Assembly (NCBI GenBank): GCA_019359505.1
Contig: JAHHHD010000031.1
Coordinates: 1 to 63,439 of the forward strand
DNA from: Drouetiella hepatica Uher 2000/2452
Lineage (GTDB): Bacteria; Cyanobacteriota; Cyanobacteriia; Elainellales; Elainellaceae
DNA: 63,439 nucleotides
Direction of reading: 5' to 3'
The notes beneath the pieces are model-generated. The model made no database searches. It was given only the letters and a program-made list of their open reading frames with translations, and had not been told where the DNA came from. Every line of letters begins with the position of its first letter. Within the stretch, counting starts at the first letter, position 1. Below, in pieces: positions 10,365 to 34,939 of this stretch. Both the position numbers and the translations under genes were made by a program.

Positions 10365-10365
10365 T

Positions 10366-12175: not shown

Positions 12176-13639
12176 CTAACGACTTTGGCTCCTTTTTTGG
12201 GATGAAGCAAGATGTGCAAGTTCAAGTATCTGTTGAAATAATTTTGGTGCAAACAAGCGAACGGCTATCACATACACGAGCACGCCAAGTACAATACAGA
12301 ACACTAATAAACTCTGTGAATTTATCGAACTATCTAGCAATTGTTTGGCAAGCAAAATGATTCCAGACATTGTGAGAGAGCAAATGAGTGGAGTGATAAA
12401 CTGTCGCAAATATTGGAGTAGCGAAGTCTGAAGGAGCTTGCTAACAGCCCTTTGAGTAATCGGAAACAAGATAAAAGCCCGAGCTAGATAAGCATAAGCA
12501 ACGGCAACTATGCCCCAGCGCACTGCGATCGCAAACCCAACAACATTTAATCCAGCACTCAGCAAACCAAAATATAATCGCCACTGTGGTTTACCTAGCG
12601 CCATAAAAATTGAGCCTTTGAAATAAGTAACAGACCTTAGAATTCCAACTACCGAGAGAACTTGCATGACTGGAACAGAGGGCATCCACTGTTTTCCAAA
12701 GCAAGTCACCACAATTTCAGGGGCTAAGACTACAACTCCTAAAAAAGTAGGAAATGCGATCGCGCTAGTGATTTGGGTAGCCGTATAAAATGCTCGTCGA
12801 AATCGCTCAGGATCTTCTTGTAAACGAGAGAAAGCAGGAAGCGCTACCTGGTTGGTCGTACTGACTAGAACTTGAGTCATCACCGCCAGGATGCGATAGG
12901 CAACACTGTAAAAGCCAAACGCAGTTGATCCTAAGAAAATACCAATCAGAAATTCATCTGCTCGGCTATTCAAAAATCCTAGAAAATTAAATGCCAGAAT
13001 ATTGATACCGAAGTTAAATAAATCTTTGAAATGCCTGACAGAGAACTTGAATTGTGGTCGCCAATCGCTGACTCGCCAAAGCACCAATGTGCCAACTAAT
13101 TCCTGCACTAATTGCTGACCAACCAAGCTCCAAACACCCCAGCCACTGTAAGCCATCAGAACTCCAGTTATGCCTCCTGCCAAGGTTCCGAGTAATGAAC
13201 GGGTGGCGATCTCTTTATAAGCGAACTGACGTTCCAGAACGGCTTGCTGCACTCTGCTTAGCGAAGTAATGACAAAGACAACAGAGAGCCACTGCAAAAT
13301 AGGAGCAAGTTGAGGTTGCTGAAAGCCATTTGCAACTGGAATTGCCAAAGTAAATACTGCCACCGTTAACAAGATGCCGCTAATGAGGCTTGTCCAGAAA
13401 GCAGTGTCTAAATGCTCTGGCTCTAGTTCTTTTCGCTGAATTAGCGCTTGGGTAAAACCTTGCTCCAGAAACACTTGCATAAAAGCGAGAACCACATTTG
13501 CTAACGCAGCTAAACCAAAAGTCGCGGGTTCAAGTAACCGAGCCAGAACAATAAAGACCACTAGAGAGCCAATTTGACTTCCCCAATTTTGGATTGCAGA
13601 CCAGACAACTCCCTGAATTGTTTGTGCTTTGATAGTCAT
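12176..13639 (-). CDS. Wzx-like lipopolysaccharide/exopolysaccharide flippase
   Basis: The 487-residue polytopic protein has about 12-14 hydrophobic helices and belongs to the MOP superfamily (MviN/Wzx/AmpL type). Its start region reads VVWSAIQNWGSQIGSLVVFIVLARLLEPATFG, typical of cyanobacterial oligosaccharide flippases. It would move lipid-linked repeat units across the plasma membrane for polymerisation or attachment. It closely resembles the truncated protein at 14570, which points to a local duplication. No Wzy polymerase is obvious in the locus; the GT-C-like protein at 20460 is the only other large polytopic candidate. Confidence 0.92.
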   Translation of the reverse strand: MTIKAQTIQGVVWSAIQNWGSQIGSLVVFIVLARLLEPATFGLAALANVVLAFMQVFLEQGFTQALIQRKELEPEHLDTAFWTSLISGILLTVAVFTLAIPVANGFQQPQLAPILQWLSVVFVITSLSRVQQAVLERQFAYKEIATRSLLGTLAGGITGVLMAYSGWGVWSLVGQQLVQELVGTLVLWRVSDWRPQFKFSVRHFKDLFNFGINILAFNFLGFLNSRADEFLIGIFLGSTAFGFYSVAYRILAVMTQVLVSTTNQVALPAFSRLQEDPERFRRAFYTATQITSAIAFPTFLGVVVLAPEIVVTCFGKQWMPSVPVMQVLSVVGILRSVTYFKGSIFMALGKPQWRLYFGLLSAGLNVVGFAIAVRWGIVAVAYAYLARAFILFPITQRAVSKLLQTSLLQYLRQFITPLICSLTMSGIILLAKQLLDSSINSQSLLVFCIVLGVLVYVIAVRLFAPKLFQQILELAHLASSQKRSQSR

Positions 13640-13759
13640 TACAGAAGTTTGACAGTCCTGATCGAGTTAGCTGAAACTAGCAATTCACCCTTAAGGTAGA
13701 ACCTTGACCTTTTGTCTCCCACCCTGAGAACCAGAGTTTGATGGCTTTGCTTCCTCTAC

Positions 13760-14530
13760 CTAATCGAGATGGAGAAGATGTGTGGCTAAAGCTTTCAAGT
13801 GATAAATTTGGTAAGCAGTTGCTTGTTGAAAGAGAATAGGCAATTTTCTTTGACAAGAATTTGGAGTCACTAGCGTCGAATATTCCTGCTTAGTCGGATT
13901 GCAAATTTCCCTAGCAAGTTCAGCCGCGGCAATTTCTTTAAATACGGTTTCAAATTCCGCTGCTAATGTTGGATAACCCAGCTTCTCTGCCATCTCAGAC
14001 AAGTGACGATCGCGCTCTGCGTATCTCTGGGATTTAGAGTCTCCGCAGTAGAGAATGCCCAGATCCAACCGCTCTTCCAGTTCATTTGCTAGACGAACTA
14101 GCAAAACATCGCGCCCAATGTCATCCAGAATATCAATTTGCTGATGAATAATAGGAATAATTGCCATATTCCACTGTAAAGCGGTGTATCTGGCAATATA
14201 TTCTTCAATTTCTTGACCAATTGCCTGCACAACCTGCTTCTGTTTCGCCTTTGAGCGGCCTGTTTGACCTGCACCAAAATCGCCGTGAGAGTAGGCAGCG
14301 TGCAAGAGTCCTGCAACAACTAATTTGTAAGACACTCGAAGCTGTGCGAGAACGCTAGCTGTACCGACTAGATGGGCAATAAAGGTTTTACCAGAGGGGC
14401 GAAACCGTCCAGTGAATAGCTGCACGGCAAGCTTGTAGGCATTGGAGATGCTCTCAAGTTCAACGTGCGAATAACCTAATTGATGTAGCTGGTTGAAAAG
14501 TTGAATATTGGTTTGGGCATATAAATGCAT
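13760..14530 (-). CDS. HD-like domain protein (DUF6817-like)
   Basis: The 256-residue soluble protein has an HD-type metal-site pattern: FIAHLVGTASVL (His ~50) and VVAGLLHAAYSHGDFG (His ~77), then VRLANELEERLDLGIL around 130. These resemble the helices of HD/RelA-like phosphohydrolases, and I believe the family is DUF6817, though this was not searched. The last ~60 residues are poorly conserved in appearance. It lies between the complete flippase and the truncated one in the exopolysaccharide operon. A role in nucleotide or sugar-nucleotide turnover is possible but unproven. Confidence 0.7.
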   Translation of the reverse strand: MHLYAQTNIQLFNQLHQLGYSHVELESISNAYKLAVQLFTGRFRPSGKTFIAHLVGTASVLAQLRVSYKLVVAGLLHAAYSHGDFGAGQTGRSKAKQKQVVQAIGQEIEEYIARYTALQWNMAIIPIIHQQIDILDDIGRDVLLVRLANELEERLDLGILYCGDSKSQRYAERDRHLSEMAEKLGYPTLAAEFETVFKEIAAAELAREICNPTKQEYSTLVTPNSCQRKLPILFQQATAYQIYHLKALATHLLHLD

Positions 14531-14569
14531 AGATATAACCTCACTCGTGAGTAGGTGGATGTGAGTGGC

Positions 14570-15241
14570 TCAACTAGAGGATGGAACAGTACCTTGCGAT
14601 AAAGATGATTGAGTGAATGATTGACTTCGTTGAACTTGCTGCCGAATGCGGGTATGGCGATCGAGTAGTAACCTAACGCGCAATAAAACAACACCAACTA
14701 GCTCTTGAGCGATCTGCTGGGCAACGAGACTCCAAACGCCGAAGCCATATAGCGCCATAGCAATACCAATGGCGCCTCCAGCGATCGTACCACTGAGCAC
14801 ACGGGTGGCTGTCGCCTTAAAGTTAAGGGCACGTTCTAGCAAGGCTTGCTGCACATTGCCACAGGCTGTGATCAAAAACAGTAAAGAGAGCGCTTGTAAG
14901 ATCGGGATAAGCAGCGGCTGATGAAATCCCGCTGCCACTCCATAGGCTCCCGTACAGCTCATTAGAAATAAGCTAAGACCGATCGCCAGACTCGTCCAAA
15001 AAGCAGTATCAATATGCTCAGCCTCTAGATCTTTCCGCTGAATTAAGCTTTGGGCAAATCCCTGCTGTAAGAAGATTTGTAGCAAGGCAAGGAAAATATT
15101 TGCCATCGCAACCAGCCCAAACATTTCGGGTTTTAGCAGCCGTGCTAGCAGAAAAAAGACAATTAGCGATCCCGCCTGACTGCCCCAATTCTGTAAAGCA
15201 GACCAAAAAGCGCCTCTAATTGCCTGCTCTCGAATACTCAT
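14570..15241 (-). pseudogene. Truncated Wzx-like flippase (N-terminal ~180 residues)
   Basis: The first ~180 residues match the complete flippase at 12176 almost segment by segment (WSALQNWGSQAGSL, LARLLKPEMFGL, QGFAQSLIQRKDLEAEHIDTAFWTSL, through AQQIAQELVG). After ELVGVVLL the frame continues with 40 unrelated polar residues and stops. A normal flippase of this family has ~480 residues and ~12 helices; only about five are left here. The break occurs at about residue 185, and the HD-like gene follows 39 bases later. This suggests an internal deletion or replacement of the 3' part. It could still make a small membrane protein, but flippase activity is unlikely. Confidence 0.8.
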
Positions 15242-15245
15242 CTAC

Positions 15246-16463
15246 TTACGCCAGAGCCTCGGAAGAGTGGGAAATGCGGGTCGGATATTTAGCTTGAATT
15301 TGCTGATAGATGTCGATAAAGCGCTCGGTGCGCTGCGTTTCGCTAAAGTGCGTTAAGGCGCGTTGTCGTCCGGCTTGCCCCATTTGCTCTGCCAATGTCC
15401 GATCGCTCAACAGCCGCAGCAGCGGAAGCGCGATCGCCTCCACCTCTCCAGGTGGAACCAAAAATCCAGTGGTGCCATCTTGCACGATTTCTGGCTGCCC
15501 CCCTACCGCACTGGCAATCACTGCCGTGCCACGCATCATTGCCTCGGTCGATACATTGCCAAAGGGTTCTTCCCACTGTGACGGAACGGCCTGTACCCAA
15601 GCGGCTTCAAACTGCTGTTCCATCTCGGCGAAGGGCAAATGTCCGAGCCAAGTTACGGCATTGCTAATACCCAGTTCTACCGCCAAGGTTTGCAGAAAGC
15701 TTACCTCGCTGCCTTGTCCAGCAATCAGTAGCCGCGCTTGAGGAACTTGTGGCAGAACTTGTGCAAACGCCCGCAGCAGAACTTCAACTCCTTTTTCAGG
15801 TACGAGTCGTCCCGCAAAAACAACGGTGGGCGGGTTTTGCAAGGCAGGACGCATAGGGCGTTCAGGCACGCCATTGTGAACAACTTCAACCGGAGAGATG
15901 CCTTCGGCTTCAAGTTTGACCTTCATTCCATGACTGAGGGCAACAACCCGATCGAACGCCGATCGCCAACGTAACCAAAGCTGCCGTTGCAGCATTAGCA
16001 TCGCCCAAGACTGCGGGGTTAGGCAACCCGATTGTAAGCAAGCTAAACCCGCCGCAAATTCGCAGGAATCCCCGTTGGGCAGCACTTTTGTACCAAGCGG
16101 ACAGATAGCTTTATAAACTGCCGTTTGGTATAGGCAAGGCAAATCGCGTAGAAGTGGCAGAATCAAAGGTGATAATTGCCACATGAACATGCGGACATGC
16201 ACAACGTCTGGCTGAAAGTTCCGCAGCACCTGCCGTAGCACCCAGTAGGCTGAAGGATTCGCGACTTGTGACAGCACTTGCAGCTTGCTGGTTGTTCCAA
16301 AGCAGAGGGAGTCGGACAGCAGTGGACTGCTAACCGTCTGCGCCCGACTCGTCAGCAGACACACCTGATGACCCCGATCGCGCAAGCCCTGCCGCAGTGA
16401 AAGCATTTGCAGTTCGGCTCCACCCGTTGCCGTGCCGTAATCATGCAGGAGCAGAATTTTCAT
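15246..16463 (-). CDS. Family 4 glycosyltransferase
   Basis: The 405-residue protein has a GT-B fold. The N-terminal domain begins LLLHDYGTATGGAELQMLSL; the C-terminal domain has VVFAGRLVPEKGVEVLLRAF and the donor-binding EEPFGNVSTEAMMRG (E-x7-E pattern). It would transfer a sugar from UDP- or GDP-sugar with retention. Its start overlaps the end of the upstream family 2 enzyme by 23 bases, and the truncated flippase starts five bases after its stop, so it sits inside one operon. Confidence 0.93.
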   Translation of the reverse strand: MKILLLHDYGTATGGAELQMLSLRQGLRDRGHQVCLLTSRAQTVSSPLLSDSLCFGTTSKLQVLSQVANPSAYWVLRQVLRNFQPDVVHVRMFMWQLSPLILPLLRDLPCLYQTAVYKAICPLGTKVLPNGDSCEFAAGLACLQSGCLTPQSWAMLMLQRQLWLRWRSAFDRVVALSHGMKVKLEAEGISPVEVVHNGVPERPMRPALQNPPTVVFAGRLVPEKGVEVLLRAFAQVLPQVPQARLLIAGQGSEVSFLQTLAVELGISNAVTWLGHLPFAEMEQQFEAAWVQAVPSQWEEPFGNVSTEAMMRGTAVIASAVGGQPEIVQDGTTGFLVPPGEVEAIALPLLRLLSDRTLAEQMGQAGRQRALTHFSETQRTERFIDIYQQIQAKYPTRISHSSEALA

Positions 16464-17493
16464 GCTTCTCTTGAGTGAGCGGTAAGGGGTCTGGTGAGGG
16501 AGCCAAGGCGAAGTGCTGTTGAGCGTAGCGATCGGTGAGGTAGCGATTCAGGCGCTTTTCGATCGGGGCAAGCAAGCCATACATCAAGATTTTTTCCAGC
16601 TTGCGGCTGCGAATGCCAAAGGTAAGACGATGGACAATCGGCATCAGAATCGTCTTTCGCCGTCGCCAGCCCAGCGCCTTATATTTCTGTTTAAAGTAGC
16701 TGTCTTCTGCCAAATTCCACTTCTGCCGCAAGCGACTCAGGCTTCCTAGCTCCCAAGCATCGCTCCAGCGCAGCATATAGAAGTGCCAGTCGCTCAAGGC
16801 TAGCGGCGACGAGGGAACGTATGTGGCAAGACACTCTGGCTCAAAGTAGACACTGCCACCTGCTTGAGCCACAGCCATACAGAAGTCAACATGCTCTTTT
16901 GTGTTGAGCATGGCTTCATCAAATTTGCCGATGCGATCGAAGATTTCTGTGCGAACCAAGGCGCAGTGGAATTCACACAGTTCAGTTTGGCTGCGCTGAA
17001 GCTGCGATCGCACTTTCGCCACCGACTGACCCTGTCGATACATTTTTTCACGCAGTCGATTTCTGCCTCTAGCATCACGAATCACGCGAGACTCACCGCC
17101 CGCAAAGTGGATGTCTTCATGGAGCGGCAAATACTGACACATTAGCGGTCCAACCACTGTTGCTCCAGTTTCATCTGCGCAATTCACCAAAGCTTCGAGC
17201 CAGCCTGGAGTAACAACAACATCATTGTCCAGAAACACGACATATTTTGTGTCAACTTCTACCAAAGCTAAGTTCCGGGCACGGTTAGGAGAGAGATAGT
17301 AGTGGGTGCGAATTAGCTTAAATTCTTTCTCTTGAGCTTGTACTTTCAGGTACTCCTGTACCTGCGGTGGAGAATTCCCATCTACATACACTAGCTTGTG
17401 CGGCATTGATGTATGTTTATAGATACTTTCAAGAGATTCACGGGTATAGCTAAATCGTTCGCGCGGAACAACTACGATCGTTACTTCAGTCAT
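16441..17493 (-). CDS. Family 2 glycosyltransferase
   Basis: The 350-residue protein has a GT-A domain: VTIVVVPRERFSYTRESLESI at the start, the metal motif FLDNDVVVTPGW at ~95, and an NTKEHVDFCMAV segment around 200 as the likely catalytic-base region. An upstream TTG at 17517 is in frame, but ATG 17493 has GGAGG at a normal distance and gives a standard GT2 start, so it is preferred. The last ~100 residues are basic and have no membrane helix. Part of the leftward exopolysaccharide operon, it overlaps the next gene. Confidence 0.9.
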   Translation of the reverse strand: MTEVTIVVVPRERFSYTRESLESIYKHTSMPHKLVYVDGNSPPQVQEYLKVQAQEKEFKLIRTHYYLSPNRARNLALVEVDTKYVVFLDNDVVVTPGWLEALVNCADETGATVVGPLMCQYLPLHEDIHFAGGESRVIRDARGRNRLREKMYRQGQSVAKVRSQLQRSQTELCEFHCALVRTEIFDRIGKFDEAMLNTKEHVDFCMAVAQAGGSVYFEPECLATYVPSSPLALSDWHFYMLRWSDAWELGSLSRLRQKWNLAEDSYFKQKYKALGWRRRKTILMPIVHRLTFGIRSRKLEKILMYGLLAPIEKRLNRYLTDRYAQQHFALAPSPDPLPLTQEKHENSAPA

Positions 17494-17532
17494 TGATGTC
17501 AAACCTCCAAGTGACAAGAGAAACGGCTCATC

Positions 17533-19020
17533 TCACACAACTGTTGATTCTTCAAGCTTCAATTTGTCTGTAACGAGTTTGTGCTTAGAAGTTGTCCACT
17601 GTTCTTTTGTAAACTCCTCGTGATAGGAACGCTCAACATTCACATTCCACAAGTCATGTTTCTCACCCAAAATATTCTGCACCGCAAGCATCGCCGTCAG
17701 CATGGAGTGATCTTGATTGTTATAGCGATGCATTCCATTTCTACCCACGGTTTGCAGGTTTTCAAAGGTTTCTAGATAGTCCTGAATCACCTGCAAATGC
17801 TGACGATACTCACCGTCATAAACTGGGTAGGCTTTGTATTGCCGAATGACAGTGCCATCTTCAACATCACCTGGTTGAACGCCGATATTCAGCGCGATCG
17901 CTTCTTGGGTTGCCAGCTTAATTAAGTCTTCGTCCGATCGCTGCCACAAATCATCTCCCTCGCTGCAAAAATATTCCATTCCCAAACAGGTTTTTCCAGC
18001 TTCAGGAACCATTGCTGCGCTCCAGTTTTTGAAGTTCTGAATTCGACCCACCTTAAACTCTGGACTGTGAATGTAGATCCAGTTGTCAGGAAATAAATTA
18101 TCCTGGTTCACAATCAGCGAGACGATCAGAAAGTCGCGGTATTTCAAGCCGTTTGCTGCTGCTAAAACTTCAGGCGGCGGCAGCGGATCGAGGCGATGTA
18201 ACAACGCTGTTACGGGCATGGTGGAGATAAATTGATCGGCTTCAATCTTCTGGATTTCCCCATTCTGCTCGATCGTAATGCTCTTGATATGCTTACCCGA
18301 TCGCTCAATTCGAGTCACTGCCGTATTGAGCTGAACTGTGCCACCTTTCTCCTCAATCAGTTCTTGAGCACGCTCCCACATCATTCCTGGCCCTAGAATC
18401 GGATAATCGAATTTCTTGATCAGGCTCTTTGTATTCTGGCTACCAAACAAAGCATTGGTCACGGCGCGCTTGAGGGACATACCTTGAATACGCTGTGCCG
18501 CCCAGTCTGCCCGAATTTGGTTACAGGGAATTCCCCAAACTTTCTCAGTGTAGGTTTTAAAGAAGGTGCGATAGAGGCGATCGCCAAAGCGATTGACCAC
18601 CCACTCTTCAAAGGTTTCTGGCTCAGGAGTCATTTTCAGCCTGTCTTTGAGTTTCGCTTGGAAGTAACTCATCAAAATCAGAAAGCTGTTAAAGACTCCC
18701 AAGTTTGACAGCGTATTGAACAGTGAAAGCGGATAGTCATAGAACTTTCCCTGATAATAAATGCGCGACAAACGAGGCACTTGAATAAACTCTTTATCGA
18801 GAATTTCATGCCAAAATTGCTCAACCTGCGGCACCTTGGTAAAAAAGCGATGTCCCCCAATATCAAATCGATAGCCTTTATACATCTCGGTTCGGGAGAT
18901 GCCACCTACTAAATCAGCTTTCTCCAGTACAATTGGCTGAATTCCGCGTTTTACAAGCTCATAGCCTGCGGTGAGTCCAGCCGGACCTGCACCGATGATT
19001 GCAATAGGATAACGTGTCAT
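17533..19020 (-). CDS. FAD-dependent oxidoreductase of the Glf/protoporphyrinogen-oxidase-like class
   Basis: The 495-residue flavoprotein has the dinucleotide-binding motif [16 protein letters not shown] at 7-22, then [22 protein letters not shown], the hallmark of amine-oxidase/UDP-galactopyranose-mutase-like enzymes. Central motifs are [10 protein letters not shown] and [12 protein letters not shown]; the end holds [15 protein letters not shown], which contacts FAD. Members of this clade are common in bacterial polysaccharide loci, where they may act as sugar mutases or oxidases. True UDP-galactopyranose mutases are ~370-400 residues, so this longer clade is probably distinct. Thirty-nine bases separate it from the upstream glycosyltransferase gene. 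Confidence 0.85.
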
Positions 19021-19059
19021 TCAATTGCCTCGATAGATTGGTTCAGAATGGCGTAAATT

Positions 19060-20091
19060 TCAAGACTCTGAAATTTCTAATAGCTTGGGTTTCAGGGTTG
19101 AATGCCGACTAAACCAGTAATAGCGGACTGTCCCAATTGCAAATGCTAAACCGCCGTAGAGAAAATAAAGCCAGTGCCAAAAGATGGTTCGATAGGCGAA
19201 CCACAAACCCCGTTTCTGCTGAAAAAATCGATAAACGGGAAAGTTAATGGATAAAAAAATTAGAGCTAAGAGAAAAGCGATCGCAACTGCGCCAGTCCAG
19301 AAGAATGTTCCTAGAAGCGCTGCTAAAAAGCCGTAGGCGAGCAGCAGACTAGCGCGGCTAGAGGTCTTAAGATTAAGGTCGTTAACAAATTGGCGATTGC
19401 GCCAAATCAGCTCAGTCCAGGGCAATGCACGGTAGAAAAACTCGGCTCTCAGCAGATTGACTGGCTTCCAACATTTGAGATGTTTAACCTGAAGGGTTTT
19501 GCACAGCTCAATACGATAGCCCGCCTGCTTTAAACGATAGCCTAACTCAATATCTTCAACTGAAGGATAACGATAGTTTTCATTAAATCCACCCAGCTTC
19601 AGAAAAATATCGCGTCGAATTGCGCCGCAAGCTCCCCAGAAAGTAGAGGCTTCCGTTGCTCCAGTTTGATGAGTGTAGTGGTGAAATAGATTTTTGTACT
19701 GCGACAAAAAGTTTGGCGCACCGGGCATATCGTCGTAAGAACCAATGGCTGCCGCTAAATCTGGCTTATTGTGAAACAACGCGACGACCTGTTCGAGGGT
19801 GTCAGAGGCGATCGTCACATCTGCATCTACAAAAAAGAGAATGTCGCCTTGAGCAGACTTAGCTCCTAAGTTTCGAGCTTTTGCTGGTCCTCCAGAAACT
19901 GGAATTCGCAGCACTCTAAATCCAGCTTCTTCAGCTAAACGATAAGACTGATCGGTATCACCATCGGCAACGACAATTATCTCTGCTTGAGACGCAAAAC
20001 TGATTAAGCTAGATAAGCATTTACGAAAACTTTCACCTCCGTTATGAACGGGTACCACAACAGACACGTTTGGCAATCGTAAAGATGACAT
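19060..20091 (-). CDS. Family 2 glycosyltransferase with C-terminal membrane helices
   Basis: The 343-residue protein has VSVVVPVHNGGESFRKCL at ~10-27, VVADGDTDQ near 40, the metal motif FFVDADVTI near 92, and PSVEDIELGYRLKQAGYRIE near 180 (ED-x-E base region). Two to three hydrophobic helices occupy 255-320 (LLLAYGFLAALLGTFFWTGAVAIAFLLALIFL), so it is membrane-bound. It is the first gene of the leftward exopolysaccharide run. The spacer to the rightward gene at 20460 should hold both promoters. Confidence 0.9.
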   Translation of the reverse strand: MSSLRLPNVSVVVPVHNGGESFRKCLSSLISFASQAEIIVVADGDTDQSYRLAEEAGFRVLRIPVSGGPAKARNLGAKSAQGDILFFVDADVTIASDTLEQVVALFHNKPDLAAAIGSYDDMPGAPNFLSQYKNLFHHYTHQTGATEASTFWGACGAIRRDIFLKLGGFNENYRYPSVEDIELGYRLKQAGYRIELCKTLQVKHLKCWKPVNLLRAEFFYRALPWTELIWRNRQFVNDLNLKTSSRASLLLAYGFLAALLGTFFWTGAVAIAFLLALIFLSINFPVYRFFQQKRGLWFAYRTIFWHWLYFLYGGLAFAIGTVRYYWFSRHSTLKPKLLEISES

Positions 20092-20459
20092 ATCGCTGAT
20101 TTCTCCGCTTATTTAACCCTCTGACTGCCTCAAAATCGGTAACCCTGATCTGTGATGCGAGAATTTATCCTCTCTTCACTTTCCAAAGCATTTTTGAACT
20201 ACCCAGAGGAAAACGTTGAAGCTTACACAAACTTCACAGGCTACGGTAATTTCTAGCTGAGAAATAAAGATTTAATAAAGTCAGTTCTCAAATCTGTGAG
20301 ACCCTCCTTTTAGTAGTAGGAGTAAAAAGCATCGCTTAATCAGGAGATATTTTGCGATCGGGAACACTCCGCGACCCTCTCACAAAAATCACCTTAAGAT
20401 CAGCAGTGCCAAGATGGAAATTTACTGAGCGCGTTCGGTCGTTATCACCACATGGAACC

Positions 20460-21626
20460 ATGAAATTAAGGGACTCTCCAAATTCAAAATCCCAAACAAT
20501 TTTCACAGTAGCGATCGGGCTACTCTACCTAGCTCTCTTTGTTTCTTTAGATTACCTACAATTTCCTCCAGTCTGGGATGAGAGCCATTTTTGGGAGACC
20601 ACGCTACGGTTTAGTCAGCAGCTCATTCCCAGTTTGGAGCTATTGAAAAGTTATGGTGAGTTAAATACTCCCCTGCCCTTTATTATTTTTGGCATTCTTG
20701 AGTTTGTGTTCAAGGGCGGTATTTTTGCTGGCAGATTTTTGAATTTAGGGCTGTCCCTGATCATGACCTATCTCATTGGTCAGGCTGCCCTGAGTCGTAA
20801 TTATGCTGCACTATTGGCATTGGGCGGACTGTTCCTATTTCCTTACTATCTATGGTCAAGTGGCTATTTCTACACAGATATCATGGGCGCATTTTTTGTG
20901 TTCATTGGTTTTTGGTTTTATCAGCAGCAGCGCCATTGGCTGAGTAGTTTTGCTTTTGTTTTGGCCATTGCCTCTCGTCAGTATATGCTGGCATTTCCAT
21001 TGGCGATTGCTGTTCACGAATTCATCTCAGTTCATAGAAGCGGATTCAAGTTAGAGCGCAGTTGGATCGCTCCACTGCTTGCCGCAAGTTCAATCTTGGG
21101 TTGGATTTTGCTCTTTGGGGGCCTGGCTCCCCAATCTGCATTCACAAATGAGAGTATTCAAGTACCTGGCATTCAAAAAAGCTCGTGGGCAGTCGATTTG
21201 AGCGGTAGCCTCTACTTTCTCTCCTGTCTTGGTTTTTACTTCGTAGGGTTAGAGTGGCTACTCTTCAGCCGAAAAATGAATGTTCAAAAGCTCATCACCC
21301 AAAAAAATTGTTTTTTAGCATTTATCTTAATCATTCTCTTCATCCTGTTTCCCCCCTTGGATACTCACGGGTTGCTGAGTCGAGGACTAGAACTATTGTT
21401 AGTAGAATTTCCTAGACTGTGCCTATTGTATGCTCTAGCCCTCATTGCTGTAATTCGCTTTGCCTACCGTCCTAATCTTGCCTTTTGGATACTGTTAATG
21501 AACTGTGGCATTATGCTGAGAGCTTACCCATGGGACAAGTATCTCTTACCGATACTGGTCGTATTTTGGTATCTCAAGGCGATCGATCGCCTTGATGCAA
21601 CATCTGAAAACAATTTTCAGGTATAG
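20460..21626 (+). CDS. Polytopic GT-C-like membrane protein
   Basis: The protein has 388 residues and 9-10 hydrophobic helices. An acidic motif in the first luminal/periplasmic loop (PPVWDESHFWETT) and an ASRQYMLAFP segment after the central helices recall GT-C glycosyltransferases that use lipid-linked sugars; ALG10-like families have a similar D/E loop and RQ motif. This is a resemblance only. The frame is open to TTG 20352, which has AGGAGAT at a good distance, so a start 36 codons earlier is a real alternative. In the exopolysaccharide locus it could be a glycosyltransferase or a polymerase. Confidence 0.65.
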   Translation: MKLRDSPNSKSQTIFTVAIGLLYLALFVSLDYLQFPPVWDESHFWETTLRFSQQLIPSLELLKSYGELNTPLPFIIFGILEFVFKGGIFAGRFLNLGLSLIMTYLIGQAALSRNYAALLALGGLFLFPYYLWSSGYFYTDIMGAFFVFIGFWFYQQQRHWLSSFAFVLAIASRQYMLAFPLAIAVHEFISVHRSGFKLERSWIAPLLAASSILGWILLFGGLAPQSAFTNESIQVPGIQKSSWAVDLSGSLYFLSCLGFYFVGLEWLLFSRKMNVQKLITQKNCFLAFILIILFILFPPLDTHGLLSRGLELLLVEFPRLCLLYALALIAVIRFAYRPNLAFWILLMNCGIMLRAYPWDKYLLPILVVFWYLKAIDRLDATSENNFQV

Positions 21627-21646
21627 CGGTCACCCGTTTGCTTAAG

Positions 21647-21685
21647 ACATTTAGGGTGGGGCACGAAGCGCCCCACCCTAAATGT
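21647..21685. repeat. Palindromic element, beta type (copy 3)
   Basis: Arms of 18 bases (ACATTTAGGGTGGGGCAC) with one mismatch around a GAA loop. Left flank cgtttgcttaag and right flank cgttctaaccgccttggcggttgcc are those of other beta copies in reverse orientation, including the small AACCGCC/GGCGGTT hairpin at 21694-21711. It lies between converging genes. Confidence 0.9.
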
Positions 21686-21759
21686 TCCCGTTCTAACCGC
21701 CTTGGCGGTTGCCATAAACCTCAAGGGAGAATGATTTTATAGAGTGGGCAGAAAATTAA

Positions 21760-24700
21760 CTATACTTCGGATTGCATTAAAGCCCCTGTTTGTATGAGAT
21801 AGGCAAAGTAGGTGCTGAGCAAAGCGCTGTCAACTGGGGCACAGGCGATCGCCGTTTCTTCCAGCGCTTGCAGCGTTGCCCTACAGTCAATTTGGGGCTT
21901 CTGATCTTGCTGATAAAGTTGGGGAATGGTGAGTTGCTCTGTTGACCAGCGCTTGAGGAAAAAGGGCAGCAGCGGCGCTAAGGGATTATCCTCGGTCTGT
22001 ACCCGCAGCCGCTCAAGCCAGTCCTGATAGGAGCAGATTTGCATGGTGTAGCCTTTGTCTTGCAGCCAGTCTGCAAATTGTCGCCAGTGCAAGGGCTGAG
22101 GATTGTTGAGATGGAAGGCTTTGCCCAAAGATTCCGGCTGTTGGGACAAGTGAGCGATCGCCTGACTCACATAGTTGACGGGGGCAATGTCCATCCGGTA
22201 GTCCAAATCAGGCATACTGCCGAGCTGAATACAGCCCCGGATCATGAGACAGGTGAAGTCATCACTATTCCAGGCTCCTGTCTGGCTATCTCCCGAAATC
22301 AGCGGCGGACGATAGATCGTTACGGGCAAACCCTGATCGCGAGCGATCGTCACCAGCTTTTCGGCAACCCATTTACTCTGGGAATAGCCCATGTAAATCC
22401 CTTCACTGTGATCAACCGGATCGGATTCCATCACCTGCTGACCTGCATAGGCGGTAGACTCAAATACCGTCACGGTAGAAACATAGTGTAGCGGCTTCAA
22501 AGTATGCTGACTGGCAAGACGTATTACTTCTTGAGTACCCAAAACGTTACTCGTCTTTAGTCCTGCATAAGGGTATACCCAGTTGAGCAAAGCTGCACTG
22601 TGGTAAATCACATCAATTTGTAATGCTAAGTCCTGGAAGGCGGCATCACAAAGTCCGAACTGAGGACGCGCCAAGTCTCCTAGTATGGGCACAATTCGGG
22701 TTTGAAATTTCTCGTCCCACAGACCATAGTTACCGAGATTTTGTTGAATTCGGGCTATTCCTTGAATAATGTCGGCAGCACGCACCAGGCAATAGCAAGT
22801 TGCCTGAGTTTGGCGCAGTAAATCTGCTAGGAGAAATGCGCCCAGAAATCCTGTAGATCCGGTCAGGAAGATAGCTTTGGGATGCGCTACAGGATTAAGC
22901 TGTCCTCGCTTTGCGGCAATGCTGGCAGCAATTTCGATATCCAGAACTGCCTCTTGATGGAGATCGATCGCCCTTTCAACTACACGATCGGATGAAGGGA
23001 GGTTTAGCGCTTGTAATTCTGTTGCCAAATGGGTTGAGAGCGCGGCGATCGTTGGGAAATGCCAAATCAAATTTGCCTCTACCTCCAGCGGCGCTGTCAT
23101 CTGCTGAAGCTCATGGGCAAACTCAACCGCCGTGACAGAATCTAAGCCATACTCGGCAAATGATCGACTGGGTTCGCTCACGGCAATATTGACCTTGCGC
23201 TCCAGCCATTGCATAATCCAGTTTTGCAGAGCCTCTTGGGTTTTAGTAGATGCCTGGGATGTATCAGAAGCCTGAGATTGGGATGTAATGGGTTCAGGCG
23301 CGACAGGTTTGCAGGGGATATGGCGCAGCAATTCGTCCAGCTCACGGTTTTCATCGGCCAAGGTTTGCTCTACCTCGCCGATCGCCTGTCCATAGTCAGC
23401 GATCGTCTGCTTCAACGGCTCTGCTGCAATAAACACCGCTGTCGGCATTTGCCCCGCCCGCTCAATCTGCTGCTCTAGCTGGATTTGTGCCCATGCTACC
23501 GCTCGTCCTAGCGAGTCGCCAGATCCAATGCGGGATTGAGCAAACGCCCAGCGCACCGATGCCAGCAAAATCACCTGAGTCGTAATCTCTCCAATCAAAA
23601 CATATGCCCAGCGCTGGGCAGTGGTGCGATCGCCAAACCGCTCTCCGCAAGTTTCCTCACGCTGCTGAATCTGTTGAGCGATCGTCTGAAGGCGCTGCGC
23701 CAAATCTGCTGCCCCCAAATTGTGCGACAGGAACTGAGTTAGCCCCTGCCCCTGATGCACCACTCGCGATCCCAGGAACATATTCAGCGTTTCAGTCGGC
23801 CCTTCAAAAATTCGCAGAATTCGGGCATCTCGCAGGAGCTGCGGCGCAATATTCGTCTCAATATAGCCCCGTCCGCCCAAAAGCTGCACTAGATTATCAG
23901 CGGCTTGCCAGAAAAACTCCGGAGCCGCAATTTTGCAGGCGGTGTAGACTTCGATCGGCACTATAACGCCGCGATCGAGCCATTCTGCCACCTGATTGAC
24001 CAGCGTTTCTGTTGTGGCGATGGCTGCCGTCAGGTCATTCAGCCGCACCAGCGTCACCGGATTACTCAATAGCCGCCCTGTTGAAACCATCCGGCGATCG
24101 GCATAGCGCACCATGAGCTGAGCGCAGCGCTTCATACCGCCGACACAAGCCGCCGCAATGCTTAGCCTGCCGTACATCATGGCATCTTGGGCGACCTCCA
24201 TACCATTCCCCGGCTCTCCCAAAATCTGCTCAGACGCAACGGGCACACCTTCTAGATACACCGTATTCTGCACCATGCCGCGCATTCCCATCGTCAGCGC
24301 CTCGGCACCCTGCCGCAGTCCTGGGCTACCCTGCCGCACTGCAAAAGCGCTGACTCCTCTGGATTTGCCGTTGGCATCCAGATGTTGAGCAAACACATTA
24401 ATCACGCCTGCCCAGGCTGCCGAGCCACTCCAAATTTTGGTGCCGTAGAGCTGTAGCCCGCTGCCTGTCCCATCTGCCGCAACAGCTTGTGTGGAAAGTG
24501 CCTGAGGGTTAGACCCGGCTCCTGGCTCCGTTAGGGCAAAAGCCGCCAGTTCCCGTCCTGTTGCCAGCTTCGGCAAAAACTCTTCCCGGATTGCTTCAGA
24601 GCCATAGTTGAGAATCGGGCGAATCCCCAATACATTATTTAAGCCAACAAATAGCGCCAGCGTCGAGTCGATCGCCCCCAACTGCTGCAAAATCCGCAGC

Positions 24701-26853
24701 GTGCTGCGATGGCTCAACGCAATGCCACCATAGGATTGTGGCACCTGCATTCCCAGCAGCCCCCGGTTGCCAAAATCCAGCACAATATGAGGTGGGATAC
24801 AGCGCCGCTCGTCAATCAAGAAAGAGTTGATGCGATCGCCCCCGTAATTCCGTAGCCACTGAATTAAATCATCTGCTTGGGACTGCGTAGGGTCATTTAA
24901 CTTCTCAGAGGCTTCCAGTTTCTCAGAGACTTGCAGGTTTTCAAAGACTTCTAGCTTCTGGGCAACTTGTTGAACCGGGATGGCTGTCTCCCTGGAAGCC
25001 ACCACATCCAAGCTGCCCCTCAAAAATCCGCTGCGGCAAGCATAGCGCTGAATTTTGCCGCTGGAGGTCTTGGGAATGCTGCCCGCCGACAGCAGCACAA
25101 CCCCATGCACCTGCAAACCATGCTCGATCGCCACAGCCTGCCGAATCTGGCTAACTACCTGCTCTACATCGAGAGATTGGTGCGTCGTGCCGTCTGCGTC
25201 TGGAGAAGTCTGACGGCGATCGGTCAGGTTAACGCTATCCCCCGATCGCTCGATCGCGGATATTGCCACCCGACGGCGCTCTTGGTATCGTCGCTCTACC
25301 TCTGCCACAATGACTAGGCGTTCTTCGCCTTCTACCTCGATCGCAAATGCTGCACAGCAGCCCGGTTTACGCAGCGACCCATGGCTCTGTTCCACAGTCA
25401 ACTCAATATCTTGCGGGTAATGATTCTGTCCCCGGACGATAATGACATCCTTTAGCCGTCCGGTGACAAAAAGTTCTCCGTCCTCGACAAATCCCAGATC
25501 GCCTGTTCGCAGATAGGAGGTTGCCTCAGGATTCTCTTCGGGTGCTGTCACGGCATAGAATATCTGACGAGTTTGTTCTGGCTGTTGCCAATAGCCTTGC
25601 GCCAAGCTAGGATTTTGCGCCACCCAAATTTCGCCGACCTGTCCAGCAGCACAGACAACTTGACTCTCTGGATTAACGATCGCCACTCTCTGCGCCGCCT
25701 GACCACAGCCCACGAGCGATCGCCCCTCTTCCTCTGAGTTGGAGGCAACCACCTGGTTTTGCGATAGCGCCGCCGCGCTCACCGTCTTAATCACGGGCAT
25801 CTGAGACTTTTGACCTCCTGAAACCAGCAGCGTGGTTTCCGCCATCCCATAGCAGGGATAAAACGCCTCTTGCCGAAAGCCACAGACCGCAAAGGCTTCG
25901 GCAAACCGCTCTAAAACTGCTGCCCGAACGGGTTCCGCTCCGTTGAACGCCACCTCCCAATGGCTTAAATCAAGCGTCGATCGCTGTTCTGGCGTAATCT
26001 TTTGTACACACAGATCGTACGCAAAATTAGGGCCGCCGCTGGTCGTTGCTTGATAGTGAGAGACTGCCCTGAGCCAGTTAATCGGTTTTCGCAAAAAATC
26101 CATGGGGGACATCAGCACCGTAGAAGCGCCAACGTAGAGCGGCTGAAGAATTCCTCCCACCAGCCCCATGTCATGATAAGGCGGCAGCCAGGTTACGCCT
26201 CGACTCTGGGCCGTGTTGCCAAAGCAGGTGCAAATTAACTCCAGGTTATGTAGCAAATTCCCATGGCTCACCATCACGCCCTTGGGGGTACCCGTCGAGC
26301 CGGAGGTGTACTGCAAAAACGCCAGCGTGTTGCTGTCGAGGATGAGGGATCGTCTATCTTCAACAGATATTTGCCCCGCAGAAATATCGCAATCATTCGT
26401 CGTCAGCCAGAGCAGGGCAGCCAAATCTGGCGTTTCCTTGAGCCAGGTGGCATTTGCCGCAATGCCCACCGTCGTCAGAGCAACGGTTGCTTGAGCATCT
26501 TGGGCGATCGCCTGGACTCGCTCGGCAGAGCGATTTGCCCTAGGCGGATAAGCCGGGACAGCCACCACTCCCGCATAAAGACAGCCAAAGAATGCCGCAA
26601 TGTAGTCTAGCCCAGGGGGATAGAGCAGCAGAGCACGATCGCCTGGTTTAGCAAAAGTCTGCAACCTCGCCGCAATTGCCTGAGCCTTCTGCGCCAAAGA
26701 TTGGTAGGTCAGGCGATCGGACTCCTGCTCCCCGTCTCCCAGCAAAACATAGACAGTCTGATCGGGCTGGGTCATGGCGCGATGCGTCAACAGGTCGGCA
26801 ATCGTTAGCCATTGGCGCGGCGTAGCCAGGAAACGAGACGGGCAAACAGTCAT
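21760..26853 (-). CDS. FAAL - acyl-CoA dehydrogenase - ACP - thioester reductase megasynthase
   Basis: This 1697-residue single-chain synthase has four modules. Residues 1-620 form a fatty acyl-AMP ligase (core YTSGSTGTPKG at 182-192; GYWQQPEQT; TGRLKDVIIVRGQNHYPQDIE), which activates a fatty acid and loads it onto an ACP without CoA. Residues ~660-1040 form an acyl-CoA dehydrogenase (LTEPGAGSNPQALS; RILRIFEGPTETLNMFLG), which would put an alpha,beta double bond into the acyl chain. An ACP follows with the phosphopantetheine serine in GLDSVTAVEF (~1239). Residues 1325-1697 form a thioester reductase (TGSTGFLGAFLL, YSQSKWVAE), which releases aldehyde or alcohol with NADPH. ATG 26853 is chosen because the longer frame adds only non-homologous sequence. 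No ketosynthase or phosphopantetheinyl transferase is nearby. Product inferred, not known. Confidence 0.9.
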   Translation of the reverse strand: MTVCPSRFLATPRQWLTIADLLTHRAMTQPDQTVYVLLGDGEQESDRLTYQSLAQKAQAIAARLQTFAKPGDRALLLYPPGLDYIAAFFGCLYAGVVAVPAYPPRANRSAERVQAIAQDAQATVALTTVGIAANATWLKETPDLAALLWLTTNDCDISAGQISVEDRRSLILDSNTLAFLQYTSGSTGTPKGVMVSHGNLLHNLELICTCFGNTAQSRGVTWLPPYHDMGLVGGILQPLYVGASTVLMSPMDFLRKPINWLRAVSHYQATTSGGPNFAYDLCVQKITPEQRSTLDLSHWEVAFNGAEPVRAAVLERFAEAFAVCGFRQEAFYPCYGMAETTLLVSGGQKSQMPVIKTVSAAALSQNQVVASNSEEEGRSLVGCGQAAQRVAIVNPESQVVCAAGQVGEIWVAQNPSLAQGYWQQPEQTRQIFYAVTAPEENPEATSYLRTGDLGFVEDGELFVTGRLKDVIIVRGQNHYPQDIELTVEQSHGSLRKPGCCAAFAIEVEGEERLVIVAEVERRYQERRRVAISAIERSGDSVNLTDRRQTSPDADGTTHQSLDVEQVVSQIRQAVAIEHGLQVHGVVLLSAGSIPKTSSGKIQRYACRSGFLRGSLDVVASRETAIPVQQVAQKLEVFENLQVSEKLEASEKLNDPTQSQADDLIQWLRNYGGDRINSFLIDERRCIPPHIVLDFGNRGLLGMQVPQSYGGIALSHRSTLRILQQLGAIDSTLALFVGLNNVLGIRPILNYGSEAIREEFLPKLATGRELAAFALTEPGAGSNPQALSTQAVAADGTGSGLQLYGTKIWSGSAAWAGVINVFAQHLDANGKSRGVSAFAVRQGSPGLRQGAEALTMGMRGMVQNTVYLEGVPVASEQILGEPGNGMEVAQDAMMYGRLSIAAACVGGMKRCAQLMVRYADRRMVSTGRLLSNPVTLVRLNDLTAAIATTETLVNQVAEWLDRGVIVPIEVYTACKIAAPEFFWQAADNLVQLLGGRGYIETNIAPQLLRDARILRIFEGPTETLNMFLGSRVVHQGQGLTQFLSHNLGAADLAQRLQTIAQQIQQREETCGERFGDRTTAQRWAYVLIGEITTQVILLASVRWAFAQSRIGSGDSLGRAVAWAQIQLEQQIERAGQMPTAVFIAAEPLKQTIADYGQAIGEVEQTLADENRELDELLRHIPCKPVAPEPITSQSQASDTSQASTKTQEALQNWIMQWLERKVNIAVSEPSRSFAEYGLDSVTAVEFAHELQQMTAPLEVEANLIWHFPTIAALSTHLATELQALNLPSSDRVVERAIDLHQEAVLDIEIAASIAAKRGQLNPVAHPKAIFLTGSTGFLGAFLLADLLRQTQATCYCLVRAADIIQGIARIQQNLGNYGLWDEKFQTRIVPILGDLARPQFGLCDAAFQDLALQIDVIYHSAALLNWVYPYAGLKTSNVLGTQEVIRLASQHTLKPLHYVSTVTVFESTAYAGQQVMESDPVDHSEGIYMGYSQSKWVAEKLVTIARDQGLPVTIYRPPLISGDSQTGAWNSDDFTCLMIRGCIQLGSMPDLDYRMDIAPVNYVSQAIAHLSQQPESLGKAFHLNNPQPLHWRQFADWLQDKGYTMQICSYQDWLERLRVQTEDNPLAPLLPFFLKRWSTEQLTIPQLYQQDQKPQIDCRATLQALEETAIACAPVDSALLSTYFAYLIQTGALMQSEV

Positions 26854-27042
26854 GATTTGGCTCCAATGAACGCAGTAGAGGCACCTGCTTCGATCTAAAT
26901 GGGGCGATCGAGTGCGGCAGGCTTTTGTACCTCTACAGTGCCCAAAGGAAATCAAAAGGAATCAAATCACTTTTCGCAAATAGTCTGATCGCTGCCGATC
27001 GACTTATTGCTGAATAAATAGCTTTACTCCTAAGAAGACCGT

Positions 27043-27104: not shown

Positions 27105-27157
27105 AAACAGAGTCAGTCGATCGCAAACCAATGCTCACGCTAGAAATACTCGTGTCT

Positions 27158-27251
27158 GATCCCCCTGAATTCCCGCGCTATCGCGCCGCTGCGCGAGAAA
27201 AAAGGGGGACTTTGAGTTCTGAAGCCCCCTTTTTAAGGAGTTGGGGGGATC
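27158..27251. repeat. Dispersed C/G-tract repeat (MITE-like)
   Basis: The outer ends GATCCCCC and GGGGGGATC are inverted; inside are AAAAAGGGGGACTTTGAG and GAAGCCCCCTTTTTAAGG. This looks like the non-coding dispersed repeats common in cyanobacterial genomes. With the hairpin at 27043 it fills the 428-base spacer between the synthase start and the DUF2808 gene's end; no gene is seen there. Confidence 0.7.
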
Positions 27252-27281
27252 GAGTGTAAGCTTTGCGATCGACTGAGAGTA

Positions 27282-27875
27282 TTAATCAGTGGTCAGAGTT
27301 CTGTTTCCTACGAATATAGCTGTAGGAGTTTTTGTAGCTGTGTAAGCTGCAATTCCATACTCATAGGTTTTTCCAGCCGTTGGCTTTGGTGCCTTTAGGG
27401 CAACGGTTAGCATTGTGCCTGATGCCACAGATGGATCAAATTCAATCCAAAAGGTTCCGGTTTCGTCCATCCACGCCTCAGTAGCGATCGCTTGACCGAT
27501 TGCTTCAGGGGTTCCAGCAAAAGCTTGAGCATTGATCAAATCAAATCTCATTGGAATCGTAGAGGCATCTTGATTAAGATCACTAAACGATAGCTTTGAG
27601 AATTGCTGTGAATGCTCTGGCATAACTACCGTGAAGTAATATAAGCTCTCTCCTTCTGTAAGGCGATCGCTCACAACAGAACCGCTTAAAGTGTTAGCAG
27701 CAGTTTGATAGCTGGAGGCAGAAGAATCGGAAGGGTGAGGATTAGACAAATTTTTGTCGCTGTCCGTCAGGTCAAATTCAGGAATATGGGGCAGTGAAAA
27801 CTCGGTAGCATATGCCCACGAACCCAGCAGGGCGCTAGTAATTGCCACCGTCAAACCTAAGCTAATTTGCCGCAT
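27282..27875 (-). CDS. Secreted DUF2808-family protein
   Basis: The 197-residue protein has a signal peptide (MRQISLGLTVAITSALLGSWAYA). The mature part holds the DUF2808 pattern: YYFTVVMPEHSQQFSKLSF, AFAGTPEAIGQAI, FWIEFDPSVASGTMLTVALKAPKP, TYEYGIAAYTA and a final FVGNRTLT. The family is nearly restricted to cyanobacteria and is of unknown function; it is expected to fold as a beta-sandwich in the periplasm or beyond. AGAGGT precedes the ATG. It is followed downstream by the repeat-filled spacer and has no operon partner. Confidence 0.82.
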   Translation of the reverse strand: MRQISLGLTVAITSALLGSWAYATEFSLPHIPEFDLTDSDKNLSNPHPSDSSASSYQTAANTLSGSVVSDRLTEGESLYYFTVVMPEHSQQFSKLSFSDLNQDASTIPMRFDLINAQAFAGTPEAIGQAIATEAWMDETGTFWIEFDPSVASGTMLTVALKAPKPTAGKTYEYGIAAYTATKTPTAIFVGNRTLTTD

Positions 27876-34189: not shown

Positions 34190-34939
34190 ATGACAGGTAA
34201 GTTAAATGGAAAAGTAGCGATCGTCACAGGAGCTTCCTCTGGTATTGGAGAAGCAACGGCGATCGCTTTGGCAGCAGAAGGCGCAGCGATTGTGATTGCA
34301 GCACGGCGAATCGATCGGCTGAATGATTTAGCGAAGCGGATTACAGAGAAAGGTGGGCAGGTTTTGTCTATTACGGCTGACGTATCCGATGAGGCGCAGA
34401 TCAGTGACCTCGTGCAACAAACCCAGACAAAGTTTGGCAAGGTTGATATTCTCGTCAACAATGCAGGCGTGATGCTGCTCGGCATGATCGATGGTGCCAA
34501 CACTGAAGACTGGCGACGCATGCTCAACCTCAATGTTCTAGGACTGATGTATGCCACGCACAAAGTTTTACCGCTAATGAAAGCTCAGGGCAGCGGGCAT
34601 ATTGTCAATATTTCATCGGTGGCGGGACGAGTTGCTAACGCAGGATCGGGAGTCTATAACGCCTCTAAATGGGCGGTAGGAGCATTCTCTGAATCCTTGC
34701 GCAAAGAGGTCTATCAAAACAACATTCGCGTCACGATTATTGAGCCGGGACTGGTGGCAACCGAGCTGCCGCAGCATGTCACTGACCCGAAAGCAAAAGA
34801 GACGACCGCGAACTTTTACGGCTCAGTCAAAAACTTGGAAAGCGAGGACATTGCAGCAGCGATCGTCTATGCCGTCACGCAGCCCTCTCACGTCAATGTC
34901 AACGAAATTCTGATTCGCCCAACTGAGCAAGAGCGGTAG
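34190..34939 (+). CDS. Short-chain dehydrogenase/reductase (YdfG-like)
   Basis: The 249-residue protein has the NAD(P) motif VTGASSGIGEATA at 13-25, the NNAGV motif at ~88, catalytic Ser in NISSVAGRV and the YxxxK pair in YNASKWAVGAF. The AARRID stretch after beta2 suggests NADP(H). AAGGAGAC lies before the ATG. Spacing to the neighbours is 51 and 57 bases, consistent with one operon. It probably reduces a small carbonyl such as a 3-hydroxy-acid semialdehyde, but substrate is not readable. Confidence 0.93.
   Translation: MTGKLNGKVAIVTGASSGIGEATAIALAAEGAAIVIAARRIDRLNDLAKRITEKGGQVLSITADVSDEAQISDLVQQTQTKFGKVDILVNNAGVMLLGMIDGANTEDWRRMLNLNVLGLMYATHKVLPLMKAQGSGHIVNISSVAGRVANAGSGVYNASKWAVGAFSESLRKEVYQNNIRVTIIEPGLVATELPQHVTDPKAKETTANFYGSVKNLESEDIAAAIVYAVTQPSHVNVNEILIRPTEQER

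Follow-up and report, generated by a model that had tools for sequence, protein, structure and literature searches.

Results

A four-domain synthase on the minus strand

The stretch of DNA analyzed here, hereafter the window, comprises 63,439 nucleotides of Drouetiella hepatica Uher 2000/2452 (JAHHHD010000031.1) and makes up contig C6 in its entirety; the genome it belongs to (G000) spans 6.4 Mb and is 99.78% complete. Its minus strand carries a single open frame at 21760-26955, which encodes 1731 amino acids (aa) from a TTG start at 26955 or, from the ATG at 26853, a 1697-aa synthase with the same end point as in an earlier note on this DNA (21760-26853); residue numbers refer to the 1731-aa frame. 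As that note had proposed, a fatty acyl-AMP ligase (FAAL), an acyl-CoA dehydrogenase (ACAD), an acyl carrier protein (ACP), and a thioester reductase (TR) follow one another in one polypeptide (Table 1). Pfam, NCBIfam, and solved relatives bear out this order part by part, with every Pfam domain match above the Pfam cut-offs.

The N-terminal part has an AMP-binding fold, and its nearest characterized relatives are FAAL-type proteins, which suggests that it is itself a FAAL. The best solved relatives are 7r7e (E 1.3e-186), 3kxw, and FadD32/FadD23 proteins; NCBIfam FAAL models score high yet under their own cut-offs (e.g., NF004509, 461 vs 775). The C-terminal reductase scores 359.6 bits against TIGR01746 (cut-off 213.35), matches Pfam NAD_binding_4 over residues 1364-1600 (E 1.5e-69), and has both the GxxGxxG and YxxxK motifs, as expected of an MxaA-like TR. 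Ketosynthase (KS), acyltransferase (AT), ketoreductase (KR), and condensation families are all missing from the Pfam list of the protein. Likewise, no KS or other polyketide synthase (PKS) gene was found among the window neighbors searched with Pfam (open reading frames (ORFs) 374 to 35983) or on contig C502 of G007, a genome of the same genus, in line with the earlier note's description of a unit free of polyketide modules. A repeat search inside the region returned weak, short repeats only.

The gene in G007 (72% complete) matches residues 19-885 (89%) and 1366-1730 (91%) on two contigs; among the matches listed, the middle stretch was not seen. Nei-Gojobori Ka/Ks values against these two parts are 0.070/0.665 (874 codons) and 0.050/0.758 (366 codons), and the two ratios, about 0.07 and 0.10, are signs of purifying selection. 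Because the domains, the conserved catalytic motifs, and the low Ka/Ks relative to the sister genome all point the same way, the sequence evidence confirms that the window encodes one real, intact, and maintained FAAL-ACAD-ACP-TR protein.

Table 1. Synthase domains and neighboring genes in the window.
Feature	Position	Strand	Basis
Four-domain synthase FAAL-ACAD-ACP-TR, 1697 aa	21760..26853	-	Open frame up to TTG 26955
FAAL N-terminal adenylation domain, residues 57-456	25588..26787	-	Pfam AMP-binding PF00501, E 4.5e-66
FAAL C-terminal domain, residues ~503-653, PKTSSGK lysine motif	24997..25449	-	DIP2-like AMP C-domain PF23024 (503-556); second alignment block to 7r7e
ACAD core N/M/C, residues 714-1064	23764..24816	-	PF02771, PF02770, PF00441, best E 3.8e-30
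Catalytic base Glu1051 codon (IFEGPTE motif)	23803..23805	-	Aligned with IFEG of VLCAD and ACAD9
ACAD C-terminal extension (VLCAD/ACAD9-like helical part)	23266..23763	-	Foldseek alignment
ACP, residues 1246-1310, GLDS phosphopantetheine serine	23026..23220	-	PP-binding PF00550, E 6.8e-09; motif read in sequence
TR, residues 1362-1725, TGSTGFLG and YSQSK motifs	21781..22872	-	TIGR01746; MxaA TR 4u7w, E 2.1e-98
Three GT2, one GT1, two flippase-like genes	11192-20091		Pfam
Opposite-strand gene between synthase and glycosyltransferase cluster	20352-21626		

The ACAD domain

The earlier note had stated that a missing ACAD base or FAD site would overturn its proposal; in the alignment the base and the FAD-side motifs are conserved. 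Across 57 aligned ACAD sequences, the catalytic Glu1051 is kept in 56, Glu810 and Trp842, which belong to two other ACAD motifs, in all 57, and GGRGY is nearly invariant. With N, M, and C domains, the catalytic Glu, and the FAD-side motifs all in place, the domain belongs to the ACAD family, where ACAD9 and VLCAD are its best solved relatives by sequence search. A structure model (mean pLDDT 89.1) superposes on human SCAD (8sgs) with a VIA Z of 45.5 and an rmsd of 2.2 over 374 positions. The top Foldseek matches are 3b96, 2uxw, and 8phf (521, 534, and 535 columns, gaps included), the best being VLCAD, whose 521 columns take in the C-terminal extension. Among the VIA rows are two ACADs that act on carrier proteins, PigA (Z 42.5) and ColB1 (Z 43.6), along with many CoA enzymes at similar Z.

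The alpha subunit of electron transfer flavoprotein (ETF; PF00766) was found in 0 of 36 genomes of the window genome's family, the window's own included, while the control match appeared in 10 of 14 named genomes; ETF alpha was also not found in the genomes of two relatives described below (L034 and L071). Because ETF was not found in the 36 family genomes, the window ACAD would need another electron acceptor.

Separately, two genomes of the family encode ~690-aa proteins (L026:9069-11144 (-) and L027:9390-11450 (+)) that consist of a FAAL C-terminal piece and a decayed ACAD, 44-45% identical and without the TEPGAGS and GRGY stretches.

Distribution of the four-domain layout

All 36 family genomes searched hold some match to the synthase. 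Among the matches listed, the full four-domain frame occurs in the window genome and in G026 only, next to the two parts in G007. The G026 frame (1707 aa) is 56% identical to the window synthase, and its four domains were confirmed in the copy L035 (FACHB-502), the same contig as G026:C62, whose neighboring genes are identical. Since this frame carries the same domains at 56% identity, the layout is more than chance.

An ACAD alignment scan of genome contigs, which was based on short exact peptide patterns and can therefore miss relatives, yielded 62 loci. Four of these have the order FAAL-ACAD-ACP-TR: L034 (Planktothrix paucivesiculata PCC 9631, 1670 aa), L035 (1697 aa), and L071 and L087, from metagenome-assembled genomes of Myxococcota. 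A fifth, L084, is the G007 gene, cut off at the contig edge. The myxobacterial copies (L071:7051-12651 and L087:7153-12651) have an extra C-terminal region of ~200 aa, assigned to EF-hands by Pfam in L071 and reading alike in L087.

We also sampled 388 cyanobacterial genomes, scoring at most three candidates per genome so that all counts are lower bounds; the ACAD is present at E 1e-100 in at least 24 and the four-domain form in at least 3. Within the class of L087 (289 genomes), the ACAD occurs in 5 genomes and frames of four-domain length in 2, those of L087 and L071; G660, of the same class, holds a 2586-aa frame. In the family of the Planktothrix genome (61 genomes), the ACAD again occurs in 5, and PCC 9631 alone has a frame of four-domain length. 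Four-domain status in these three samples was read from the length of the open frame (for G007, from its two matched parts), and the 1658-aa frame of G038 equals the length of L070, which is KS-AT-ACAD-ACP. Genome mining thus agrees with the earlier note's impression that the four-domain unit is unusual.

Of the 43 loci counted as FAAL-ACAD-ACP without a TR, L037 and L084 end at a contig edge; among the remaining 41, which could be tested, 31 have a KS gene within the next 500 bases, whereas no KS was found next to the window gene. The FAAL-ACAD-ACP starter is known in kind; what is unusual, and rare, is its closure by a TR in the same protein. A different fusion occurs in Amazonocrinis nigriterrae CENA67 (L054:6684-11753 (+)), where FAAL-ACAD-ACP is joined to what by sequence impression is a PLP alpha-oxoamine synthase, with SDR-, Rieske-, and radical-SAM-like neighbors on the same basis, possibly a sphingoid or aminoketone pathway.

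Searches of other sources were negative. A viral scan with the ACAD alignment gave 20 pattern stretches and no relative, and the Planktothrix cluster had no close counterpart on plasmids; a tblastn search there at E 1e-150 brought up 22 records, in none of which a single place covers 80% of the query. G006, of the same genus (98% complete), has no ACAD match at E 1e-100; its homology to the window ends at the DUF2808 gene, at 27283, and the sequence read beyond is unlike the synthase. Among the papers listed in an open-access literature search, no title or abstract start named the FAAL-ACAD-ACP-TR layout; no such protein is described in the available part of the cyanochelin B paper, and in the main text of a FAAL review, as far as accessible, the layout is not described and no word begins with "reductase" (PMC11837247).

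Ether-lipid genes beside the relatives

Downstream of the synthase gene in L034, on the same strand, lie genes for a PlsC-type acyltransferase (22 bases after), an alkyl-dihydroxyacetone phosphate (DHAP) synthase (AGPS) homolog, a short-chain dehydrogenase/reductase (SDR), a CdsA-like CTP_transf_1 protein, and a CDP-alcohol phosphatidyltransferase. The four-domain gene in L035 is adjoined by divergent PlsC, HAD-IB phosphatase, and AGPS genes. The AGPS homologs of the two loci, which are FAD proteins, match the mammalian alkyl-DHAP synthase 4bby near full length (E 4.6e-164 and 1.5e-157), and the first of them shares an SHHHGVGK stretch with 4bby in the alignment; NCBIfam gives GlcD-type matches only, far under cut-off. 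AGPS and PlsC-type genes beside the four-domain enzyme in two cyanobacterial lineages are a new finding.

AGPS was detected at E 1e-70 in at least 3 of the 388 sampled cyanobacteria, G026 among them, and because it is so rare, two AGPS-adjacent four-domain genes are unlikely to arise by chance. The chance of one overlap between three AGPS and three four-domain genomes in 388 is ~0.02, before adjacency or the Planktothrix case is considered and with G000 and G007 not being independent. In G349 the AGPS locus reads PlsC, HAD, AGPS, and then a FAAL-ACP-KS gene that continues into undetermined bases. Of four AGPS loci examined, three (L034, L035, and G349) thus have a FAAL next to AGPS; in the fourth, of G091, none was seen in the 16 kb read. 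The ether-lipid gene set, AGPS and an acyltransferase beside an alcohol-forming enzyme, is present in L034 and L035 and was not found in the window genome. Among the papers listed in an open-access literature search, no title or abstract start reported ether lipids or AGPS in cyanobacteria, which is a weak negative.

Beyond L034 and L035, the cyanobacterial AGPS loci seen are L153:6911-13061 (-) and L154:4543-7373 (-); one has PlsC-HAD-AGPS and a FAAL-ACP-KS gene, and in the other PlsC-AGPS lies near APS kinase and sulfotransferase genes.

Phylogeny of the ACAD and TR domains

We built a quick ACAD tree of 57 rows, in which some non-cyanobacterial rows drew long-branch warnings. L020 (same contig as L035) was dropped, and L040, L081, L084, L088, L091, and L092 were left out, being cut off or having no ACAD hit of >380 columns and 35% identity in one frame. 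The window groups with L034 and L035 in one clade (SH-aLRT 96), placed among FAAL-ACAD-ACP starters of cyanobacteria, and both four-domain copies from Myxococcota lie apart from it. In the TR tree, the window and L034 are joined (97), near the TRs that end KS-AT-KR-ACP-TR PKSs of the same family and away from the TRs of nonribosomal peptide synthetases (NRPSs). Most simply, the fusion would have occurred once in cyanobacteria, perhaps with an exchange of the TR in L035, and independently or much earlier in Myxococcota.

Surroundings of the window gene

Dispersed repeats, with many copies on other contigs, flank the synthase on both sides (27109-27284 and 21613-21725). Two flippase-type genes, 12176-13639 and 14570-15241 (-), match the same Pfam model, the second with its first half only, as if it were a partial duplicate. 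MacB/ABC transporter genes lie further along the window, as does an SDR gene (34190-34939 (+)) with 41% identity to the Planktothrix ether-lipid SDR over 192 residues; given how common SDRs are, the match does not speak for a link. Elsewhere in the genome, contig C86 (L030-L032) holds a large NRPS/PKS cluster with a separate ACAD (L031:3003-4151) and a TR-bearing NRPS (L032:1875-6461).

Discussion

Relation to known systems

The first three domains of the synthase are those of the FAAL-ACAD-ACP starters of cyanobacterial and proteobacterial PKS/NRPS clusters, whose ACADs are up to 64% identical among 37 aligned. Close relatives of its TR (51-58% identity for five), together with a FAAL 61-62% identical, come from clusters of the same family that end in a PKS-borne TR. 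Unlike the window synthase, these clusters contain a KS-AT-KR module and a PKS without an ACAD hit. Two were read, L028:3926-14912 and L029:5073-15882; beside a FAAL and an ACP, each encodes a KS-AT-KR-ACP-TR synthase (~2017 aa; domains from Pfam on L028) that would release a 3-hydroxy aldehyde or 1,3-diol, and TR-bearing frames of 1984-2033 aa similar to them occur in other genomes of the family. Carboxylic acid reductases (CARs) also hold adenylation, carrier, and reductase domains in one chain. The window protein differs from them in its FAAL-type adenylation domain, the intervening ACAD, and the MxaA-like TR, and it scores 197.9 bits against the CAR model (cut-off 1300). Nor, by its Pfam list, does it fit the olefin synthases, defined in the accessible part of the review by KS-AT-KR, sulfotransferase, and thioesterase (PMC11837247).

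That the enzyme is wholly unlike known systems is not supported: the tambjamine proteins TamA, TamT, and TamH are a discrete chemical parallel, and ElbD of Myxococcus xanthus follows a parallel fused logic. In the available sections of the tambjamine papers, the fatty-amine branch of tambjamine YP1 performs the same chemistry of activation on an ACP, dehydrogenation, and conversion of the thioester to an aldehyde (PMC9594044, PMC6667630). TamA (ANL-ACP) and TamH (TR-transaminase) were reconstituted to the C12 amine with detection of the C12 aldehyde (PMC9594044); a double bond at C-3 is attributed to TamT (PMC6667630). The tambjamine enzymes, however, are separate proteins, place the double bond at C-3, and carry a class III transaminase fused to the TR, a domain that the window protein does not have; with its adenylation and carrier domains in the same chain as the TR, it falls outside that definition.

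ElbD, as portrayed in the accessible text of PMC9131029, combines a FAR1-like N terminus with ACS, ACP, and AGPAT-like domains; its operon also includes HAD and NAD-epimerase genes, the M. xanthus AGPS (MXAN_1676) lying in another operon, and in vitro no fatty alcohol product of ElbD itself was detected. Functionally it is the closest parallel to the window synthase, being a fused multidomain enzyme with acyl activation, an ACP, and a reductase-like domain. No ACAD is named for ElbD in that text and its acyltransferase is internal, whereas the window synthase has its TR at the C terminus and an added ACAD, and the relatives encode PlsC separately; the synthase thus does not share the domain set by which ElbD is described. 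Taken together, the window protein combines known domains in a rare closed layout, in what is probably a new setting.

Proposed function

FAALs form an acyl-AMP and then an acyl-ACP, ACADs move the alpha and beta hydrogens of an acyl chain to FAD, and TRs reduce the thioester. From this chemistry we infer the catalytic steps, the position of the double bond, the choice of aldehyde or alcohol, and the destination of the product. The FAAL would adenylate a free fatty acid and load it onto the protein's own holo-ACP. The ACAD would then oxidize the chain on the ACP, the likeliest product being the trans-2-enoyl thioester, although a 3-ene as described for TamT is conceivable, and pass its electrons to an acceptor other than ETF, perhaps O2. 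Finally, the TR, drawing on NAD(P)H, would release the chain as an enal or, after a second hydride, as an allylic alcohol. A common use of the enzyme in its clade would be to furnish AGPS with fatty alcohol for ether-lipid synthesis; in the window genome, where AGPS was not found, the product would go elsewhere. On balance we favor this reading of a self-contained fatty-acid-to-aldehyde/alcohol synthase, and the family's likely role is to provide ether-lipid synthesis with a fatty alcohol that may be 2-unsaturated.

Several observations weigh against this reading. A search of the window genome for AGPS found none (best match E 2.6e-16, 26% identity over ~200 residues), and neither did one of G007 (72% complete). 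The window neighbors are not of the ether-lipid type: upstream lies a DUF2808 gene, and downstream a convergent membrane protein gene and then a polysaccharide cluster, with the downstream ones not conserved in G007. In G091, AGPS is accompanied by PlsC and by no FAAL in the 16 kb read, the flanks examined of the myxobacterial L071 and L087 contain no AGPS homolog, and the TR of L035 falls outside the window/L034 group, together with another free TR protein (moderate support). Within the ACAD, P811 and G812 of TEPGAGS are kept in 44 and 38 of the 57 sequences, and 55 of 57 have Gly at what we take to be the position of the flavin-contacting Thr168 of MCAD, so the flavin site is not standard. 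ETF is present in the genome of L087. Nor was AGPS found in the rest of the family except G026 (next best matches 24-28% over ~200 residues). An ether-lipid role can thus be proposed for the clade and not for the window copy. The new lipid pathway raised as possible in the earlier note is strengthened by the AGPS and PlsC-type genes that accompany the enzyme in Planktothrix PCC 9631 and FACHB-502; the signal role it also raised found no evidence.

It is possible, if doubtful, that the ACAD does not desaturate in vivo, being inactive, structural, or a reductase, and that the enzyme is a converter to saturated alcohol or aldehyde, like ACS plus FAR. The failure to find ETF in the family and the Gly in place of the flavin-contacting Thr would suit this view, as would the description of ElbD without an ACAD and, in the same partly available source, an animal AGPS pathway that takes C16/C18 alcohols from FAR1 (PMC9131029). 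The ETF result and the Gly also fit O2 or another acceptor, and neither proves it. The conservation of Glu1051, Glu810, Trp842, and GGRGY argues for an active dehydrogenase, as does the confident ACAD fold with PigA and ColB1 among the structural matches, alongside many CoA enzymes at similar Z; the visibly decayed ACAD of L026 and L027, which lacks these motifs, looks different.

Release as an aldehyde that feeds aldehyde-deformylating oxygenase (ADO) or is itself volatile, that is, a hydrocarbon or defense route with no lipid destination, strikes us as rather improbable. The window genome does encode ADO (E 2.8e-122) and AGPS was not found there, and 2- and 3-heptadecenes of unsettled origin are mentioned for some cyanobacteria in the accessible part of PMC3903477. 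ADO occurs, however, in 33 of the 36 family genomes and so is no specific partner, and the AGPS neighbors in two lineages suggest use of an alcohol.

Heterocyst glycolipids offer a model for a fatty alcohol aglycone, and the GT2, GT1, and flippase-like genes at 11192-20091 could be imagined to complete such a glycolipid. We judge this partnership with the polysaccharide cluster very unlikely: an opposite-strand gene intervenes, and the G007 contig that starts inside the TR continues into a match to window 9489-11084 with no polysaccharide cluster between, the cluster region itself yielding just short repeat-like matches there (genome 72% complete). Least probable of all is that the synthase loads an assembly line elsewhere in trans, such as the NRPS/PKS cluster on C86, even with FAAL-ACAD-ACP normally preceding a KS gene and such a cluster present, because its own TR would release the chain and the C86 cluster has its own ACAD and TR-bearing NRPS.

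Returning to the synthase as a source of reduced fatty chains, a bolder version is tentative and, in our view, rather unlikely to hold in full: some cyanobacteria may feed a eukaryote-type AGPS with 2-unsaturated alcohol from this enzyme, giving 1-O-(alk-2-enyl) glycerolipids, with an ETF-free ACAD acting before the ether bond forms and with the window lineage, lacking AGPS, having redirected the alcohol. If so, these lipids would be allyl-ether isomers of plasmalogens, and the ACAD perhaps O2-using. The family poses the question of how an ACAD works in organisms without ETF, and a single gene for converting free fatty acids to reduced and probably unsaturated chains would be a compact enzymological tool. 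Above that value we rate the link of the relatives to AGPS, which predicts that Planktothrix PCC 9631 and FACHB-502 would contain alkyl, perhaps alk-2-enyl, ether lipids.

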